From Trueperella bernardiae (GTDB lineage: Bacteria > Actinomycetota > Actinomycetes > Actinomycetales > Actinomycetaceae): DNA of 64,000 bases. Shown here piece after piece: positions 2,161 to 10,146 of this stretch; position 1 is the first letter of the stretch; each line of letters begins with the position of its first letter. The translations under genes were made by a program, and so were the position numbers. The notes below the pieces were generated by a model, which worked only from the letters and a program-made list of their open reading frames with translations, did not search any database and was not told where the DNA came from. The stretch lies in assembly GCF_001469025.1 (NCBI RefSeq), contig NZ_LNIZ01000003.1, forward strand, positions 62,001 through 126,000, read 5' to 3'.

Positions 2161-4041
2161 ATGGATGACACCACGAAGCAGGTTCCCGGGATCACTCCCG
2201 ATTTTGCAACCGAGGCGGCCGAACGCCTGGCTGAGCTGTTCCCTGAGGTGATTGCGGACGGGAAGGCTGACGTCGAGAAGCTCAAGGTCTTGCTTGGTGA
2301 CGATGTTGAGGATGCACGGGAGCGGTTCGGGCTCTTCTGGCCAGGTAAGACTCGGGCAATTCGTGCTGCGCAAACGCCGACGACGTCGACCCTCATGCCC
2401 GACAAAGAGAATTCCGTTGACTGGGATACCACTCAGAACGTGTTCATCGAGGGCGACAACCTCGAAGTGCTGAAGATCCTCCAAAAGCACTATTACGGGC
2501 AGATCAAGATGATCTACATCGACCCGCCCTACAACACGGGCAACGACTTCGTCTACGCCGACGACTACGCCGACTCCATCGGCAACTACCTCGAACTCAC
2601 CGGCCAGACCGACGAAGGTGGCAAGCTCTCCACCAACTCCGAATCCGCTGGGCGTTTCCACTCCAACTGGCTGAACATGATGTACCCGCGCCTCAAACTA
2701 GCAAGGAATCTCCTTCGTGAGGATGGTGTTCTCGCTCTCAGTATTGATGATGATGAGATGCCTCGGGTACGGCTTCTTCTGGATGAAATTTTCGGGGAGA
2801 ACAATTTCTACGCGAACATTTGCTGGCAGAAGAAATACTCTCCGGCAAACGATGCCAAGCGTTTTTCAGATATGCACGACTTCATTTTGATTGTTGCACG
2901 ATCTGAAAAGTTCACGCGAGGCCTGTTTCCTCGCACCGAAGAGAACAACAAGCCCTACAAGCATGATGACAATGACGGTCGAGGTCGCTACCGTACCGGC
3001 GATCTTTCGGTACGCACATACAGTGCTGCTAACGACTACCCGGTCGAGAATCCGAATACTGGTGAAATATACTATCCCCCAGCGGGAAGATGCTGGGTCT
3101 TTTCCCAAGAAAAGCTCAATGTTTATATCTCAGAGAATCGTATCTACTGGGGAAAGGATGGAGCAGGAGCTCCACAGCTCAAGCGCTATTTGAGTGAAGT
3201 GCAACAGGGAACGGTGCCCACGACGTGGTGGGACTTCAACTTTGCTGGGCATAACGATGAGTCGAGAAAGGAAATCAGGGCGCTCTTTGGGACAACTTCA
3301 GTCTTCGATACCCCGAAGCCAACGAAACTGATTAGACGTCTCCTGCAAGTTCTGACCACAGGAGCTGATGGTGAAATCGTCCTTGATTTTTTCGCTGGCT
3401 CAGGCACTACAGCCGACGCTGTTATGCAGCAAAACTGTGAAGATCAGGGGCAGAGAAAGTTCATTCAGGTTCAGCTACCCGAGCCACTGTCCGAGAAGGC
3501 AAGCAACGTTGATTGGAACCCTACCACTATCGCTGACGTGACTCGTGAGCGTATCCGTCGTGCGAGTAAGAAGATTCTCGAGGAAGAAGCGTCGAAGCTT
3601 GACGGCCGCACCGGCACGCTGGATGTGGGTTTCCGCGCCTACAAGCTTGTAGATACGAATTTCACGAAGTGGAAGGCCGACTCGGGCCTGTCTGAGGATG
3701 AGCTGGTTGGTTTGTTCTCCGATCTTGCGGACTCTGCTGATGATCATGCCCGTCCCGAAGCACTGTTGACTGAGGTGTTACTGAAGCTGGGCTTCTCGCT
3801 GACGGAGAAGATCGAGACTGTTGAGGTCGCAGGCCTGAGCGTCTTCAGCGTCGCGGACGGTCTGGTGATGGCCTACTTAGATGAGCACACGCAGCCGACG
3901 TTGGATCAGTTGCGCGCTCTGGTAGCGCGGGAGCCTGAGCGTCTGGTTGTCTTGGAGGATGCGTTCCAGGGCAATGATGAGTTGAAGACGAACCTGGTGC
4001 AAGAGTGCCGCACCCGCAATGTTGAGCTGTGGACGGCGTAG
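2161..4041 (+). CDS. mod: Type III restriction-modification DNA methyltransferase (Mod subunit)
   Basis: This 626-residue protein is an amino-methyltransferase of the beta class. The catalytic motif IV DPPYNTG (about residue 121) comes before the AdoMet-binding motif I FAGSGTT (about residue 411), with the target-recognition region between. Family knowledge: Mod transfers methyl groups to adenine in an asymmetric site, gives the Res complex its specificity and protects host DNA. The start ATG follows a CGGAG ribosome site. Bases from about 2690 to 3480, covering the recognition region, are clearly less GC-rich than either flank, as expected for an exchanged specificity domain. The stop lies 15 bp before the Res start. 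No phase-variable simple repeat is visible. Confidence 0.93.
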   Translation: MDDTTKQVPGITPDFATEAAERLAELFPEVIADGKADVEKLKVLLGDDVEDARERFGLFWPGKTRAIRAAQTPTTSTLMPDKENSVDWDTTQNVFIEGDNLEVLKILQKHYYGQIKMIYIDPPYNTGNDFVYADDYADSIGNYLELTGQTDEGGKLSTNSESAGRFHSNWLNMMYPRLKLARNLLREDGVLALSIDDDEMPRVRLLLDEIFGENNFYANICWQKKYSPANDAKRFSDMHDFILIVARSEKFTRGLFPRTEENNKPYKHDDNDGRGRYRTGDLSVRTYSAANDYPVENPNTGEIYYPPAGRCWVFSQEKLNVYISENRIYWGKDGAGAPQLKRYLSEVQQGTVPTTWWDFNFAGHNDESRKEIRALFGTTSVFDTPKPTKLIRRLLQVLTTGADGEIVLDFFAGSGTTADAVMQQNCEDQGQRKFIQVQLPEPLSEKASNVDWNPTTIADVTRERIRRASKKILEEEASKLDGRTGTLDVGFRAYKLVDTNFTKWKADSGLSEDELVGLFSDLADSADDHARPEALLTEVLLKLGFSLTEKIETVEVAGLSVFSVADGLVMAYLDEHTQPTLDQLRALVAREPERLVVLEDAFQGNDELKTNLVQECRTRNVELWTA

Positions 4042-4056
4042 AAGGACTTGAGTTCG

Positions 4057-7026
4057 ATGAAATTCCAGTTTGACCCGCGCCAGCCCTACCAGACGAGCGC
4101 CATCGAGGCCGTCACTGACCTATTCGATGGGCAGCCCGCCGATGCTGACCAACTCCTGACCGGCTTGCAGTATCTTCCGCCCCAGCAATCACTGGACATA
4201 CCGGACTTTGGTGGCCAGGAAGCTTTCGGCATCTTCGAAGAGATCGGTGCATATGGCAACAATCTCGTCTTGGACGAGAGCATGATCTTGGAGAATCTGC
4301 AACGGGTGCAGGACCGCAACGGCCTGGAGATCAACGCGAGCTTGGTTGATGGTTTGCAGTTCGATATCGAGATGGAAACCGGCACCGGTAAGACCTACGT
4401 CTACCTGCGTACCGCGTTCGAATTGGCAACGAAGTACAGATTCAACAAGTACATCATCTTGGTGCCGTCGGTGGCGATACGGGAGGGTGTGAAGACCAGC
4501 ATCCAGTTGATGCGCGAGCACTTCCGCCACCTGTACCCGCAAATCAACATGGACTACAACGTTTACTCCGGTGACCGCGCCGAGGACGTGCGAGATTTTG
4601 CTACGGCTACATCGTTGCAGTTCTTGGTGATGACGATCGACTCGATTAGGGGCGATAAGAACACCCGTATCATTCATCAGCAGCGCGATAAGCTCTCTGG
4701 CCTGCGGCCACTTGACTTCTTGCAGGCAACTCGGCCGATTGTCATCATGGATGAGCCGCAAAACATGGAGTCCCAGCTCTCCCAGTCCGCTGTCACCGAC
4801 CTGAACCCGCTGTGCACGCTGCGCTACTCGGCAACCCACCGGACCACCCGCAACGTGGTGTACCGGCTCGATCCGCTCGATGCTCACCGGCTGGAGTTGG
4901 TGAAGAAGATCGTCGTCTCCGACGCCCTGGAGATGGGCGGCGCGGCGAAGCCGTATGTGAAGTTACTGGAGGTCAAACGCGATCCGTTCAAAGCCAGCCT
5001 CGAGTTGGTGGTAAAGAAGAAGGACGGCGGCTTCGCGAAGAAGAAGGTCTCCGCCACCCAAGGCGCCGATTTAGAGCGCCTTTCCGGTGGGAACCCAGCA
5101 TATGAGGGTAATTGGCGGATCAACGAGATCAGCATTCAACCGGAGCAGATCGAGCTGACTAACTACGGCTACCTGCGGGTTGGCGAGACGATTGGTGACA
5201 ACCAGGACGCCGTGTTCCGGGAAATGATCAAGGAGACCATCAAGGAGCACATCCGCAAAGAGACCCAAGTTCACGAACGCGGCATAAAAGTGCTCTCCTT
5301 GTTCTTCATCGACAAGGTCGCCTCCTACCTCGGTGAGGGCATCAACAACCTCGATGCGCGCGGCCCGTTCGCCGAGGCCTTCGACACGATCTACGTTGAA
5401 GAGCGCGCGAAAAACCCGGCCGCCCACGGGTTCCTGCCCGAGGATCCGGTGGAGGCCCGCTCTGGATACTTCGCGCAGATGAAGGCAGGTAAGGGCAAGA
5501 ACGCCCAGCTCACGTTCAAGGACTCCTCGGGCAAGACAAAGGCCGATGATGACGCCTATGAGCTGATCATGAAGGACAAGGCTCGCTTGCTCAGTATGGA
5601 CGAGCCGGTCCGGTTCATCTTCTCTCACTCTGCGCTCCGTGAGGGGTGGGATAACCCGAACGTGTTCCAGATCTGCACGCTGCGTGACATGTCGACCGAG
5701 ACGGAGCGCCGCCAGACCATCGGCCGTGGCCTGCGCCTGCCCGTGAACCAGGACGGTGAGCGGATCAAGGATGCGGGCACCGCACAACTCACTGTCGTGG
5801 CGAACGAATCGTATAAGGCGTTCGCGTCTGCACTGCAGGATGAGTACAAGCAGGCTGGTGTGGCGATCGGATACGTGAGACGGACTGAGTTCGCTGCCTT
5901 GCCGGTGGTTGATGAGGTGACGGGTAAGGAGATGCGGCTGGGGACGAAGCGTTCCAGTGAGATCTGGGAGTCGCTCCTCAGCCAGGGTTACATCAACGCT
6001 GCCGGTGAGGTGATGGGCACGTGGGTGCCAGACCAGCTGGGCTTCACTGTAAACCTTCCCGAAGAGTTCGCAGGTTACGAGGAAGACGTCATCCGGATTG
6101 TCGATGGCTGCAAGATCGAAACGATCGTCAAGCACAAGCGCAAGCGCCAGCCCCGCGCCCTCAACAAGCAGGTCTACGCCACCCCCGAGTTCGAAGAGTT
6201 CTGGGAGGCAATCACTGCTCGCACCAGTTACCGGGTCACCCTCGATCGAGAGGACCTCATCAAACGGAGCGTGGCGAGTATCCAGCAGGCGCCGCAGATC
6301 GATCCGATCCGTATCCAAGTCACCCGAACTGGGCTTGAGATCACGCGTGGTGGCCCAAAAGGCACGGAACTGGGATCCCGGTCCACCGTGCTCACGGACT
6401 CGTATCTGTTGCCGGACATCATCAGCCAGCTTCAAGAATCAACGTCGCTGACGCGGAAGACGATCATCGAGATCCTGCTCGGCTCCGGCCGCATCGGGGA
6501 CTTCCTCGCGAACCCGAATGACTTCATCAAGATGGTCACCGAGCGTATCGAGACCGAGCTCGCTCACACCCTCATCGACGGGATCCAGTATGAGCCGATC
6601 GGTGGCTCCATCTATGAGCTGCGCGAACTTCAGGCCGATGGGTTGGAGGAGAAGGACCGGTTCATCGACCAGCTGTACAAGGTGACGAATAAGGAGAAGA
6701 CGGACTTCGACTACCTCGTGCTCGACTCGGCAGTGGAGCGGCAGTTCGCTCAGTACTTGGATGGGCGTGAGGACATCAAGTTGTTCATGAAGCTGCCCGA
6801 CAAGTTCCGTGTGCCTACACCGGTGGGTGATTACAACCCGGACTGGGCGATTATCAAGGTTGAGGACGGCACCGAGCACCTCTACCTGGTGAGGGAAACG
6901 AAGTCGAGTCAAGACCCGGCGAAGCGCCGCCCGAGCGAGAATGCGAAGATCAAGGCCGCAATGAAGCACTTCGCCGCGATCGGCGTGGATTATGCGGTGT
7001 CCGCGCCTGAACGGTGGGAAGTCTAA
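4057..7026 (+). CDS. res: Type III restriction endonuclease (Res subunit), helicase-nuclease
   Basis: A 989-residue superfamily 2 helicase with a C-terminal nuclease. Visible motifs are Walker A METGTGKTYVYL (about residue 106), a DEAD-like Walker B IVIMDEPQNME (about 230), SATHRT (motif III) and GRGLRLPVNQDGER (motif VI). Near residue 925-950, YNPDWAII followed by VRETKSS is the PD-(D/E)xK nuclease signature. Res complexes with Mod, moves on DNA using ATP and cuts about 25 bp from unmethylated sites. I chose the ATG at 4057 because AAGGA lies at the right distance; an in-frame TTG at 4048 is possible. It is co-transcribed with mod, and the third gene begins 15 bp after its stop. Confidence 0.93.
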   Translation: MKFQFDPRQPYQTSAIEAVTDLFDGQPADADQLLTGLQYLPPQQSLDIPDFGGQEAFGIFEEIGAYGNNLVLDESMILENLQRVQDRNGLEINASLVDGLQFDIEMETGTGKTYVYLRTAFELATKYRFNKYIILVPSVAIREGVKTSIQLMREHFRHLYPQINMDYNVYSGDRAEDVRDFATATSLQFLVMTIDSIRGDKNTRIIHQQRDKLSGLRPLDFLQATRPIVIMDEPQNMESQLSQSAVTDLNPLCTLRYSATHRTTRNVVYRLDPLDAHRLELVKKIVVSDALEMGGAAKPYVKLLEVKRDPFKASLELVVKKKDGGFAKKKVSATQGADLERLSGGNPAYEGNWRINEISIQPEQIELTNYGYLRVGETIGDNQDAVFREMIKETIKEHIRKETQVHERGIKVLSLFFIDKVASYLGEGINNLDARGPFAEAFDTIYVEERAKNPAAHGFLPEDPVEARSGYFAQMKAGKGKNAQLTFKDSSGKTKADDDAYELIMKDKARLLSMDEPVRFIFSHSALREGWDNPNVFQICTLRDMSTETERRQTIGRGLRLPVNQDGERIKDAGTAQLTVVANESYKAFASALQDEYKQAGVAIGYVRRTEFAALPVVDEVTGKEMRLGTKRSSEIWESLLSQGYINAAGEVMGTWVPDQLGFTVNLPEEFAGYEEDVIRIVDGCKIETIVKHKRKRQPRALNKQVYATPEFEEFWEAITARTSYRVTLDREDLIKRSVASIQQAPQIDPIRIQVTRTGLEITRGGPKGTELGSRSTVLTDSYLLPDIISQLQESTSLTRKTIIEILLGSGRIGDFLANPNDFIKMVTERIETELAHTLIDGIQYEPIGGSIYELRELQADGLEEKDRFIDQLYKVTNKEKTDFDYLVLDSAVERQFAQYLDGREDIKLFMKLPDKFRVPTPVGDYNPDWAIIKVEDGTEHLYLVRETKSSQDPAKRRPSENAKIKAAMKHFAAIGVDYAVSAPERWEV

Positions 7027-7041
7027 GGGGAGCGGCGACGA

Positions 7042-9927
7042 GTGCAGTATTTGAGTGACTATCAGGCCAAGCTCTACGCTCACGAGCTCGACCGTTGCTA
7101 TGCCTCCGACCATGTCGGCAAGCTCGCGGGGCTGCTATTCGATGCGCAGGTGGAGCCCAAACCCCACCAAGTCGACGCCGCCCTGTTCGCCCTGCAAACC
7201 CCGTTCCTGAATGGGGTGATCCTTGCTGACGAGGTCGGGCTTGGTAAAACGATCGAGGCCGGAATCGTCATCTCCCAATACTGGGCACAGCGCAACCGGC
7301 GCGTCCTCATCATCGCACCATCGTCGCTGCGCCAGCAGTGGAAGCAGGAACTGGACGAGAAATTCGCTCTGCCCGCCTCACTGCTCGATCGCACCAACAT
7401 TGATGAGTTGACCGGGCCAGGCGCGAAGGATCAGATCCTCATCTGCTCCTATGAGTTCGCGAACTCGCAGACCACGAAATTGCTCCGGACCTGGGATCTC
7501 GTGGTCTGCGATGAAGCCCACCGCCTGCGCTCCCACTGGACCGGGCAAGCCAAGATCGCAGCAAACGTCGCCCGCATCTGTCGCGCCGCCACGAAGACCG
7601 TCATGCTCACCGCGACTCCGCTACAGAACCGGCTCGAGGAACTCTACGGGCTGGTCTCGGTGTTCGCGCCGGACTACTTCCATTCTCTCGAGGCATTCAA
7701 GGAGCGCTACCTGGACAACCCTGACGGGGTCGGCAACGATGACCTCGCCCAGCGGGTCGCGATGGTGGCGAAACGGACGCTTCGCAAGGATGCGGATAAG
7801 TACATTCGCTTCACCGAACGTATGCCGCTGACCGTCGCGTTTACCCCGAGCGATGCTGAGATCGAGCTGTACGACAAGATCAACGAGTACCTGCAGCGGC
7901 CGTTTCTGTGGGCGTTTGCGAAATCCCAACGCCACCTGTCCGCTCTCATCATGCGCAAACGCCTCGGCTCCTCCTCCTACGCCGTCGCCTCTACTCTAGA
8001 GCGCACTGCAGACCGCCTCGAAGCGGAAGTCCGCGCCGGACGCCGACGCAACGACGCCGGCGGCTTCGTCGGTGACCCAGACCTCACCGGCGAGCTACGG
8101 GAAGAAGCAGAAAACACCCCGGTCACCCCTGAGGTGATTGACCCGGAGCAGCGCCATGCGATGCTCAGCGAAGTCGAAGAGCTGCGCGAGTACGCAAAGC
8201 TCGCCCGCTCCATTACCGTCAACCAGAAGGCTGTGAAGCTGGTTGATGCGCTCGAGCAGGGCTTTGCGAAGCTGCGCGAGATTGGTGCACCGGAGAAGGC
8301 GATCATTTTCACCGACTCCACCGTCACCCAGGACTACCTCGCCCGATCCCTCACGGAGGCAGGATGGGGCGAAGGCCTCGTCTTGTTCAACGGCACCAAT
8401 ACCAGTCCGAAAGCCAACACGATCTACAAGCGGTGGCTCGAGGAGAACCAGGGCGGTGATCTTGTCACAGGTATTCTTGCTGCAGACCGGCGTAAAGCCC
8501 TCGTGGATGAATTCCGTGAACGCGGTCGGCTCATGATCGCGACCGAGGCCGCTGCGGAGGGTATCAACCTGCAGTTCTGCTCGATGCTGGTCAACTATGA
8601 CCTGCCGTGGAACCCGCAACGCATCGAGCAGCGCATCGGCCGCGTGCACCGCTTCGGGCAGAAACACAACGTCGTGGTCGTCAACTTCTCCAACAAAGGA
8701 AACCTTGCCGAAGAACGCATCCTCGAGCTGCTCACTGAGAAGTTCGAGCTGTTCACCTCCGTGTTCGGCGCGTCCGATGAGGTTCTCGGTCAGATCGAAG
8801 ACGGCCTGGATTTCGAGAAGAACATCGCCCACATCCTTGACAACTGCAAGACCTCCGCCGAGATCGATGCCGCGTTTACCGCTCTCGAAGCGAAGTACGC
8901 GAAGCAGATCAACCGGGAGATGAAGAAGACCCGCGCCAAGGTGTTCGATAACCTCGACCCGAAGGTGCGCGACAAGCTCAAGTCCTACGACGCCCAAACC
9001 GGAATCGTCCTCAACGCCTTTGAACGACTCTTGATCGATGTTACTCGGCACGAGCTGGGGGATAAAGCCACCTTCAACGATTCGGGTACGCAGTTCAAGC
9101 TTCACGCCTCGCCCCGTAGTGGAATTACGGCCGGTGACTACTACTTCAAGTCGGAGCCGCGGAAGGGCGCGCATCAGTATCGCTACTCCAGTGATCTTTG
9201 TTCGTGGGTCATCGAGTCGGCGAAAACACGAAACACTCCACCTGCCCGGCTGATTTTCCAGATTCAAGGATCAGACCGGGCCAGCACGATCGCCAAGCGT
9301 ATGCGCAACAAGCAGGGGCGGTTGCGAGTTGAGGAAGTCACCTTCGCGATGCGCGCTGGTAGCAAGGACCTTCGAGAGTCGTATCTCCTATTCTCAGGGT
9401 TCTTTGATAACGGTACCCCCATGGATCCAGAGCAGATTCGAGATCTGCTCGACCTGAACTGCGTCAACGTCAGTGAGGGCGATGTGGATACCAACGGCTT
9501 CGAGCGCGGCATCGCGCAACAGATCAAGAGGCTCGAGCGGGATGTCGAAGAGCGAAATGCCACTTTCTTTCTTGAACAAGAAGCCCTCGTTGATGCTGCT
9601 CGCCTCGACCTCAAAGCGACATTTGACGCCAAGATCCGCGATTACCAAGCCAAGGCCGCCACAGCAAACAAGGAAGCTCGAAAGGCATCAAACACGGCGC
9701 AGGAGTTGAAGCTCCGCCAAGAGGCACGGCGCTGGCAGCGCAAGGCTGACGATGCTGAGGACGACTATCGCGCCGAACGAAATCGTCTACGCACTGAGTC
9801 TGAGGAGCTGCTCCGTAGCGCAGAGGATGCTCTGCGAGCCACCGAGACTCGGCAGGAGTTGTTCACCATCAATTGGGAGGTAGCGCGAGCGCGGCGCCGG
9901 GACGCAAGCCGCCCCATGGCGTCGTGA
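7042..9927 (+). CDS. SNF2-family helicase encoded in the type III restriction operon
   Basis: A 961-residue Swi2/Snf2-type ATPase. ILADEVGLGKTIEAGI (motif I, about residue 60-75), ICSYEFAN (Ib), CDEAHRLRSH (motif II, about 155), LTATPLQN (III), TEAAAEGINLQFC (V) and QRIGRVHRFGQKHNV (VI, about 530) are all present, so the motor should be active. The segment after about residue 600 is not recognised. The last 120 residues are highly charged and probably coiled coil (repeated A, R, K, E from about 830). The GTG start follows GGGGAGC, 15 bp after res. Related helicases (RapA, DISARM DrmD) remodel protein-DNA complexes or act in phage defence. The placement suggests a third subunit of this system; that role is inference. 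Confidence 0.85.
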   Translation: MQYLSDYQAKLYAHELDRCYASDHVGKLAGLLFDAQVEPKPHQVDAALFALQTPFLNGVILADEVGLGKTIEAGIVISQYWAQRNRRVLIIAPSSLRQQWKQELDEKFALPASLLDRTNIDELTGPGAKDQILICSYEFANSQTTKLLRTWDLVVCDEAHRLRSHWTGQAKIAANVARICRAATKTVMLTATPLQNRLEELYGLVSVFAPDYFHSLEAFKERYLDNPDGVGNDDLAQRVAMVAKRTLRKDADKYIRFTERMPLTVAFTPSDAEIELYDKINEYLQRPFLWAFAKSQRHLSALIMRKRLGSSSYAVASTLERTADRLEAEVRAGRRRNDAGGFVGDPDLTGELREEAENTPVTPEVIDPEQRHAMLSEVEELREYAKLARSITVNQKAVKLVDALEQGFAKLREIGAPEKAIIFTDSTVTQDYLARSLTEAGWGEGLVLFNGTNTSPKANTIYKRWLEENQGGDLVTGILAADRRKALVDEFRERGRLMIATEAAAEGINLQFCSMLVNYDLPWNPQRIEQRIGRVHRFGQKHNVVVVNFSNKGNLAEERILELLTEKFELFTSVFGASDEVLGQIEDGLDFEKNIAHILDNCKTSAEIDAAFTALEAKYAKQINREMKKTRAKVFDNLDPKVRDKLKSYDAQTGIVLNAFERLLIDVTRHELGDKATFNDSGTQFKLHASPRSGITAGDYYFKSEPRKGAHQYRYSSDLCSWVIESAKTRNTPPARLIFQIQGSDRASTIAKRMRNKQGRLRVEEVTFAMRAGSKDLRESYLLFSGFFDNGTPMDPEQIRDLLDLNCVNVSEGDVDTNGFERGIAQQIKRLERDVEERNATFFLEQEALVDAARLDLKATFDAKIRDYQAKAATANKEARKASNTAQELKLRQEARRWQRKADDAEDDYRAERNRLRTESEELLRSAEDALRATETRQELFTINWEVARARRRDASRPMAS

Positions 9928-10077
9928 CGCCCGCCTAGGCACCCGGGCCCAAGCGCGCGTGAGGCGGGCCCGCCACCCGGGGGCTTGCCGTTGCGGGAAC
10001 CGGGTCGAAAGTCGCATATGGCGCCCGGCCGGTGATACATTTGAGGGCGGTGCGTGGAGGCTAAGGCCGCCCATACT

Positions 10078-10146
10078 AGGCGGGCCGAACCGCCCGAAAC
10101 AGGCGGGCCACACCGCTCGAAACAGGCGGGCCGAACCGCCCGAAAC
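10078..10146. repeat. Three tandem copies of a 23-bp GC-rich unit before ppdK
   Basis: The unit AGGCGGGCCGAACCGCCCG plus AAAC occurs at 10078-10100, 10101-10123 (three changes) and 10124-10146; a partial fourth copy begins GGGTGGCGCGCC. Each unit contains GGCGG...CCGCC, so every copy can form a small hairpin. The array lies 54 bp upstream of the ppdK start, within the likely promoter or leader. The spacing is uniform with no unique spacers, so it is not a CRISPR array. Confidence 0.85.

Follow-up and report, generated by a model that had tools for sequence, protein, structure and literature searches.

We analysed a stretch of 64,000 nucleotides from Trueperella bernardiae (assembly GCF_001469025.1, contig NZ_LNIZ01000003.1, positions 62,001-126,000 of the forward strand), hereafter the window, to which all positions given below refer. 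Three open reading frames lie head to tail on the plus strand: mod (2161..4041; 626 aa), predicted to encode a type III beta-class DNA methyltransferase and specificity subunit; res (4057..7026; 989 aa, ATG start), predicted to encode a type III restriction helicase-nuclease; and snf2 (7042..9927; 961 aa, GTG start), whose predicted product is a SWI2/SNF2 ATPase of the RapA/DrmD type in which a nuclease motif is absent. The genes are separated by gaps of 15 bp each (4042-4056 and 7027-7041). The mechanically called frame of res starts at TTG 4048; since AAGGA precedes the ATG at 4057, the TTG is unlikely to be the start of Res. The flanking genes were a TM2-domain-like ORF upstream and a pyruvate phosphate dikinase gene (ppdK) downstream, both named from their own sequences without a family scan, and no additional gene is predicted in the operon. 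The initial annotation had described three same-strand genes with 15-bp gaps, complete catalytic motifs in all three and no further genes, a description that was confirmed by the ORF check, by the motif search of Mod, Res and SNF2 and by the neighbouring genes. Promoter and terminator scans of the locus returned counts near those of shuffled sequences. The more than 500 bp located 5' of mod (1600-2160) contain no obvious small helix-turn-helix gene, unlike many relatives with SNF2 as the first gene, in which a short gene of this type lies just 5' of SNF2. A GC-rich 23-bp tandem repeat (3.5 copies, 10067-10146) was observed directly upstream of ppdK.

The Mod protein matched the family N6_N4_Mtase (PF01555) and the PADLOC model MTase_III (E 1.6e-201), and phmmer comparison with solved type III Mods gave 277 bits for 6k0w and 206 bits for EcoP15I Mod (4zcf). 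Its motifs DPPYNTG (at 121) and DFFAGSGTT (at 409) place motif IV before motif I, as in the beta class. Res matched ResIII (PF04851), the nuclease family RE_endonuc (PF19778), PADLOC REase_III (E 4.1e-263) and EcoP15I Res (4zcf, E 2.6e-53), and the presence of TGTGKT (108), DEPQ (232), GRGLR (556-560), PDW (928) and RETK (946) defines an SF2 motor and a PD-(D/E)XK nuclease encoded adjacent to Mod, the arrangement by which type III systems are identified. The EcoP15I Mod and Res are homologous to the window pair and have the same motif set, but the prototypes EcoP15I and EcoP1 have no third SNF2 gene. Type III enzymes recognise an asymmetric site, methylate one strand and cut about 25 bp away between inverted sites. 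As predicted from their domains and motifs, Mod and Res possess everything required for recognition, methylation and cutting, and the type III assignment made in the initial annotation is supported by the profile matches, the motifs and the homology to EcoP15I. The target recognition domain (TRD) of Mod (residues ~200-400) is 10-44% identical to those of four close relatives, against 48-100% elsewhere in the protein; this low identity beside conserved flanks points to an exchanged target recognition domain. Repeats of the kind associated with phase variation were sought in mod, and none of note was found. Judged from its coding sequences, the window locus contains a type III system that is intact and switches specificity, and it is no relic.

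Comparison with a congener (G008) gave information on the history of the locus. In that genome the trio and ppdK lie apart, at 1.22 and 2.07 Mb respectively, and no trio adjoins ppdK, an arrangement which indicates that the trio was inserted or moved. Homology with the region upstream of ppdK in the congener begins again at position 9918 of the window, within the final SNF2 codons, and the last 14 codons of snf2 with its stop (9883..9927, plus strand) are missing from homologues, whose proteins end at EV(I). The 14 terminal residues of SNF2 are thus encoded by flanking DNA, which puts the right boundary of the insertion at about 9883-9918. Since the upstream flank of the trio had no match beside ppdK in congeners, the insertion could be placed at its right edge only.

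The SNF2 protein and its relationship to RapA

The third protein of the operon matched SNF2-rel_dom (PF00176) and Helicase_C (PF00271), and the family scan revealed no nuclease or toxin domain in it. The motor (residues ~29-602; 7126..8847, plus strand), delimited by hhalign to RapA and by the AlphaFold (AF2) model, carries DEVGLGKTIEA (63), DEAH (157), TATP (190) and QRIGRVHRFGQ (530-540), motifs that were invariant in an alignment of 60 full-length homologues with 35-87% identity. The protein thus has the appearance of an active double-strand DNA motor of the RapA/DrmD type that lacks a nuclease.

The best family for the motor was DrmD (DrmD_b, NF038318), matched with 572 bits over residues 31-648 while the C-terminal part of the DrmD profile remained unmatched. 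Both scores obtained were below the DrmD equivalog cut-offs (572 vs 950 and 252 vs 610 bits), and drmA, drmB, drmC and a drmMI/PglX-like gene were not found at the window locus, where the neighbours are mod, res, the TM2-domain-like ORF and ppdK. On the basis of this score and these neighbours, membership of DISARM was ruled out; from the likeness to DISARM (drmD) drawn in the initial annotation, the kinship of the motor to DrmD of class 1 DISARM is what stands. Relatives of this motor are present in other systems as DrmD, BrxHII and ArmA (PMC12458937, PMC12839542). BrxHII (type 3 BREX) and ArmA (ARMADA) are also RapA-like SNF2 helicases in methyltransferase-based defence, although their partner genes differ from those of the window and BrxHII retains a Tudor domain. 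MADS was also considered, as a small helix-turn-helix gene named mads1 lies just 5' of SNF2 in one E. coli relative; since SNF2-Abi-AIPR-Mod-Res makes up the remainder of the locus, this gene was taken to be a shared small regulator and not a sign of MADS.

An AlphaFold model of the whole SNF2 protein, obtained from an alignment that left out plasmid and E. coli rows, had a mean pLDDT of 81. The C-terminal region (residues 603-947; 8848..9882, plus strand), delimited by AF2, hhalign and the alignment, was modelled as helices, a beta domain (676-812), an antiparallel coiled coil (820-930) and a closing strand (934-947, LFTINWEV), in which F941 and W945 are nearly invariant in the 60-row alignment. 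The coiled coil consists of two long antiparallel helices (820-880 and 885-930) inserted ahead of the final conserved strand, so that the coiled-coil tail noticed previously proved to be real. When the region was folded alone, a pLDDT of 88 was obtained, with a strand-helix-helix-strand order similar to that of RapA. In RapA and BrxHII, two long helices have been described that interrupt the C-terminal sheet ahead of its last strand (PMC12839542), and the modelled coiled coil of SNF2 is suggestive of this same arrangement.

A RapA-like build over the whole length of the protein was observed in two comparisons. The top five Foldseek matches of the SNF2 model were all RapA and nearly full length, and hhalign against a profile of seven RapA proteins was collinear over 758 columns, C-terminal part included (probability 100, E 9e-43). 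RapA, which shares the Swi2/Snf2 motor of this type, is 21% identical to the window SNF2, and the RapA N-terminal domain (1-143, tandem Tudor) has no counterpart: residue 29 of SNF2 corresponds to RapA 144, and 28 residues precede the motor. The C-terminal region alone had no significant match among solved structures (best Foldseek E 0.14, generic coiled coils only) and only a weak hhalign match to RapA (E 0.08); it is the full-length alignment that identifies this region as RapA-like. VIA-align of the whole model returned eukaryotic remodellers and ZorD, with no RapA among the 50 matches listed. Unlike RapA, the window SNF2 is encoded in a defence operon, and some genomes hold both a chromosomal RapA and a protein of the window SNF2 type.

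Association of SNF2 with mod-res across genomes

To determine how SNF2 is distributed, 84 loci with a full-length homologue, from species-representative genomes, plasmids, and E. coli and its relatives, were picked by SNF2 similarity and not by context, and scored; 16 of them end too near the gene, leaving 68 informative loci. Mod and Res are encoded on the same strand as SNF2 in 62 of the 68, across many phyla, a proportion to be taken as indicative since the sample is phylogenetically uneven. In two other loci Mod is accompanied by a Res that is divergent or was not seen, and four have neither. A class-wide census found SNF2 in 2 of 395 genomes, too sparse for a two-way association test, which was consequently run on the bacterial family of the window. 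Among its 213 genomes, SNF2 is present in 17 and Res of the window class in 16; both are in one operon in 14 genomes and at contig ends in 1 more (Fisher p = 6e-20). These data indicate that the association of SNF2 with mod-res is far beyond chance. The proposal of the initial annotation that SNF2 is a third component is thereby supported, the homologues being found mostly with type III systems and not away from them. It is hardly credible that SNF2 is a mere defence-island neighbour, functionally unlinked to Mod-Res: its motor has relatives in several other defence systems and 4 of 68 loci lack both partners, but same-strand operonic linkage in so many loci and phyla, together with the Fisher result in one family, speaks against it. 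The gene order varies. The 14 family operons divide into 8 with Mod-Res-SNF2 and 6 with SNF2-Mod-Res; of the 62 loci in the wider set, 57 begin with SNF2 and 5 have the order Mod-Res-SNF2.

Some individual loci depart from this pattern. In two loci, a homologue of the window SNF2 has other genes beside it in place of type III genes: GmrSD and an MrfA-like helicase in one (L098:9914-22834), a DrmD-like helicase (NOV_C) and a DUF1156 protein in the other (L124:8230-18001); both are possible DISARM/ARMADA-like combinations. In L123:8066-15714, a ResIII protein of 864 aa with near-zero similarity to the other Res models is encoded between Mod (733 aa) and SNF2 (954 aa); it may represent a fourth kind of core or a core missing its nuclease domain. 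An entire trio, with an SNF2 81% identical, is present on a contig classed as viral (L028, IMGVR_UViG_2518285596_000001), which could be a provirus or a piece of chromosome labelled wrongly.

In 2021, Murray et al. reported, without assigning it a role, a gene for a helicase-like ATPase next to mod-res in more than 500 genomes, with Eco86II as an example (PMC8259958). In that work, the extra ATPase was dispensable for methylation, the cloned Mods of relatives being active without it, only Mod and Res and no SNF2 peptides were detected in a partially purified, cleaving Eco86II preparation, and the two characterised members, Eco86II and BspHIV, make m4C (PMC8259958). Our reference locus for this type (L117) is 98.3% identical to the E. 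coli NCTC86 locus, and its SNF2 shares 39% identity with the window SNF2 over the full length (976 alignment columns). The Eco86II/BspHIV group has, as the window does, Mod, Res and a nuclease-less helicase-like ATPase; the L117 Mod is 27% identical to the window Mod over the catalytic part, however, the L117 Res has no BLAST similarity to the window Res, and the order in the group is SNF2-Mod-Res, with the ATPase immediately 5' of mod, in contrast with Mod-Res-SNF2 in the window. As homology and adjacency hold despite the order, the window locus is an order variant of the 2021 group; the trio is a kind already known, of which the window provides a further member. In our literature search, no later paper assigning a role to the third gene was found. 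The type III system of Cutibacterium acnes comprises three locus tags (PMC7365801), the third of which may be an SNF2 gene of this type. What is new here is the independence of SNF2 from its partners, the recurrent defence cargo and the RapA-like build over the whole length of the protein.

A role in protecting the host can be weighed against these observations. SNF2 would evict the Mod2Res complex from unmodified host sites, and would so alleviate restriction or let the system settle safely in a new host. The systems are mobile, with plasmid and chromosomal copies and differing genomic positions in two congeners, frequent TRD exchange in Mod exposes unmodified sites, and a remodeller could evict Res complexes. 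We nevertheless consider this role improbable, given that the cloned Mods of relatives methylate without SNF2 (PMC8259958) and that many type III systems establish without it.

Partner exchange, cargo and a proposed role for SNF2

Three classes of Res, about 16% identical to one another, are found beside SNF2 proteins whose motors are about 50% identical between classes, SNF2 being far better conserved than its Mod and Res partners. On the SNF2 phylogeny (54 proteins, maximum likelihood), 6 switches of Res class were counted, against a minimum of 2. The clearest case is that of Marinobacterium sediminicola (L045) and Marinobacter (L108), with SNF2 proteins 82.8% identical beside Mods of 21% and Res of 17% identity. 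On the other hand, SNF2 and Res distances are correlated (Mantel r 0.66, p 0.001), indicating that the pair is often co-inherited. In partial Mantel tests with Res, the C-terminal region gave r 0.20 and the motor r 0.23, so the former, considered as a Mod/Res-specific surface, showed no excess over the latter. The initial annotation had placed the Mod/Res interaction surface in the region after residue 600 plus the coiled coil; this localisation finds no support in the partial correlations, and it is further opposed by the occurrence of SNF2 with three unrelated Mod-Res classes, by the Marinobacterium and Marinobacter pair and by the collinearity with RapA.

The same results bear on whether SNF2 is a dedicated subunit or regulator of Mod2Res, binding through its C-terminal domain and altering motor or cleavage properties. 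The tight operon with its 15-bp gaps, the Mod-Res-SNF2 order in 8 of 14 family genomes and the Mantel correlation would all fit such a subunit. We judge it unlikely, as nearly the same SNF2 (83% identity) stands beside unrelated Mod-Res in L045 and L108, the C-terminal region covaries with Res no more than the motor does, and no SNF2 peptides were detected when Eco86II was partially purified in cleaving form (PMC8259958).

In roughly half of the SNF2-Mod-Res loci, one of the two intervals, SNF2 to Mod or Mod to Res, contains additional genes; the window has none. Recurring cargo comprises AIPR-like genes (7 loci), AAA with DUF4276, SLFN_AlbA_2, Abi_2, RhuM, SoFic-type Fic, and AAA with an S8 peptidase, as assigned by scanning one member per cluster and extending to the remainder by BLAST clustering. 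The main rival to the reading favoured below builds on this cargo: SNF2 would, with no need of Mod-Res, sense DNA that is foreign or resists restriction and trigger a separate response, as a second line of defence or control hub, often through adjacent abortive-infection genes and, in the window, alone. In addition to the cargo between SNF2 and Res in about half of the loci, the defence genes that adjoin SNF2 away from type III systems (L098, L124) and the DrmD, BrxHII and ArmA relatives in other systems agree with it. It is, however, doubtful, since cargo is missing from about half of the loci, among them the window, the cargo varies while SNF2 stays, AIPR genes are common in many restriction-modification operons (PMC2292703), and SNF2 has no nuclease or toxin domain.

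We tentatively favour, at a little short of even confidence, that SNF2 is a generic remodeller clearing DNA-bound obstacles, probably RNA polymerase, and not a dedicated Res-binding subunit. The clearing of proteins from DNA ahead of Res had also been suggested in the initial annotation. Mod-Res would mark and cut, and SNF2, expressed from the same operon and outside the Mod2Res complex, would act as a separate ATP-driven nucleoprotein remodeller, travelling on double-stranded DNA and stripping obstacles from it; these would most likely be RNA polymerase, with phage proteins bound to DNA or restriction complexes that have become stuck as further possibilities. EcoP15I slides by one-dimensional diffusion and does not displace streptavidin roadblocks (PMC11142916), and RapA strips stalled RNA polymerase (PMC9303389). 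A Res complex, which reaches its partner by passive sliding, would be unable to push obstacles aside, and on a cleared track two such complexes could meet head to head even where phage DNA is being actively transcribed. A generic clearing job of this kind would suit the same SNF2 to unrelated Mod-Res cores, and a separate obstacle-clearing motor would explain why SNF2 went undetected in the Eco86II preparation.

Several observations weigh against a role as remodeller. RapA is activated when RNA polymerase releases its N-terminal domain (PMC8501970), and this domain is absent from SNF2. Furthermore, the C-terminal region alone has no significant structural match, partner exchange could equally be fast adaptation of a real interface, the Mantel correlation is such as shared descent or co-adaptation gives, and many type III systems manage without an SNF2 gene.

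It is possible, though we would put it clearly below an even chance, that SNF2 forms the fixed element in a defence platform built of modules: a partner-agnostic RapA-like remodeller, repeatedly combined with at least three unrelated Mod-Res lineages and with rotating abortive-infection cargo, that provides the removal of roadblocks of which sliding type III enzymes are incapable. SNF2 would then be a general restriction helper and not a type III subunit. Obstacle clearing bears on how sliding type III enzymes handle crowded, transcribed phage DNA and, as the same type of motor is present in DISARM, ARMADA and BREX, the answer would extend past type III.

A second kind of SNF2 and type III locus

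The bacterial family of the window also contains another type III Res subfamily, which occurs without the window SNF2 and has a different SNF2-like gene upstream in six loci. These SNF2-DUF4391-Mod-Res loci share with the window type an SNF2 helicase gene next to Mod-Res, located upstream of it, and differ in having a distinct SNF2 of ~1,095 aa (67-136 bits to the window-family model; full length in four of the six), a DUF4391 partner, identified in L127 as the sole locus scanned, and the other Res subfamily. Five of them (L127, L128, L130, L131 and L132) have an SNF2 frame of 1,092-1,105 aa (994 aa in L130, at a contig end), a gene of ~230-300 aa, sometimes SLFN_AlbA_2, then Mod and a Res of ~1,024-1,074 aa; in the sixth (L126), also at a contig end, the SNF2 frame is only partial. 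The mod region is split into two frames in L128 and L130. Inside that of L128, a gene for a 643-aa EF-G-like GTPase with domains like those of ribosomal protection proteins lies on the opposite strand (L128:10172-12103), and an ORF of the same length and place is present in L130 (L130:8695-10626).
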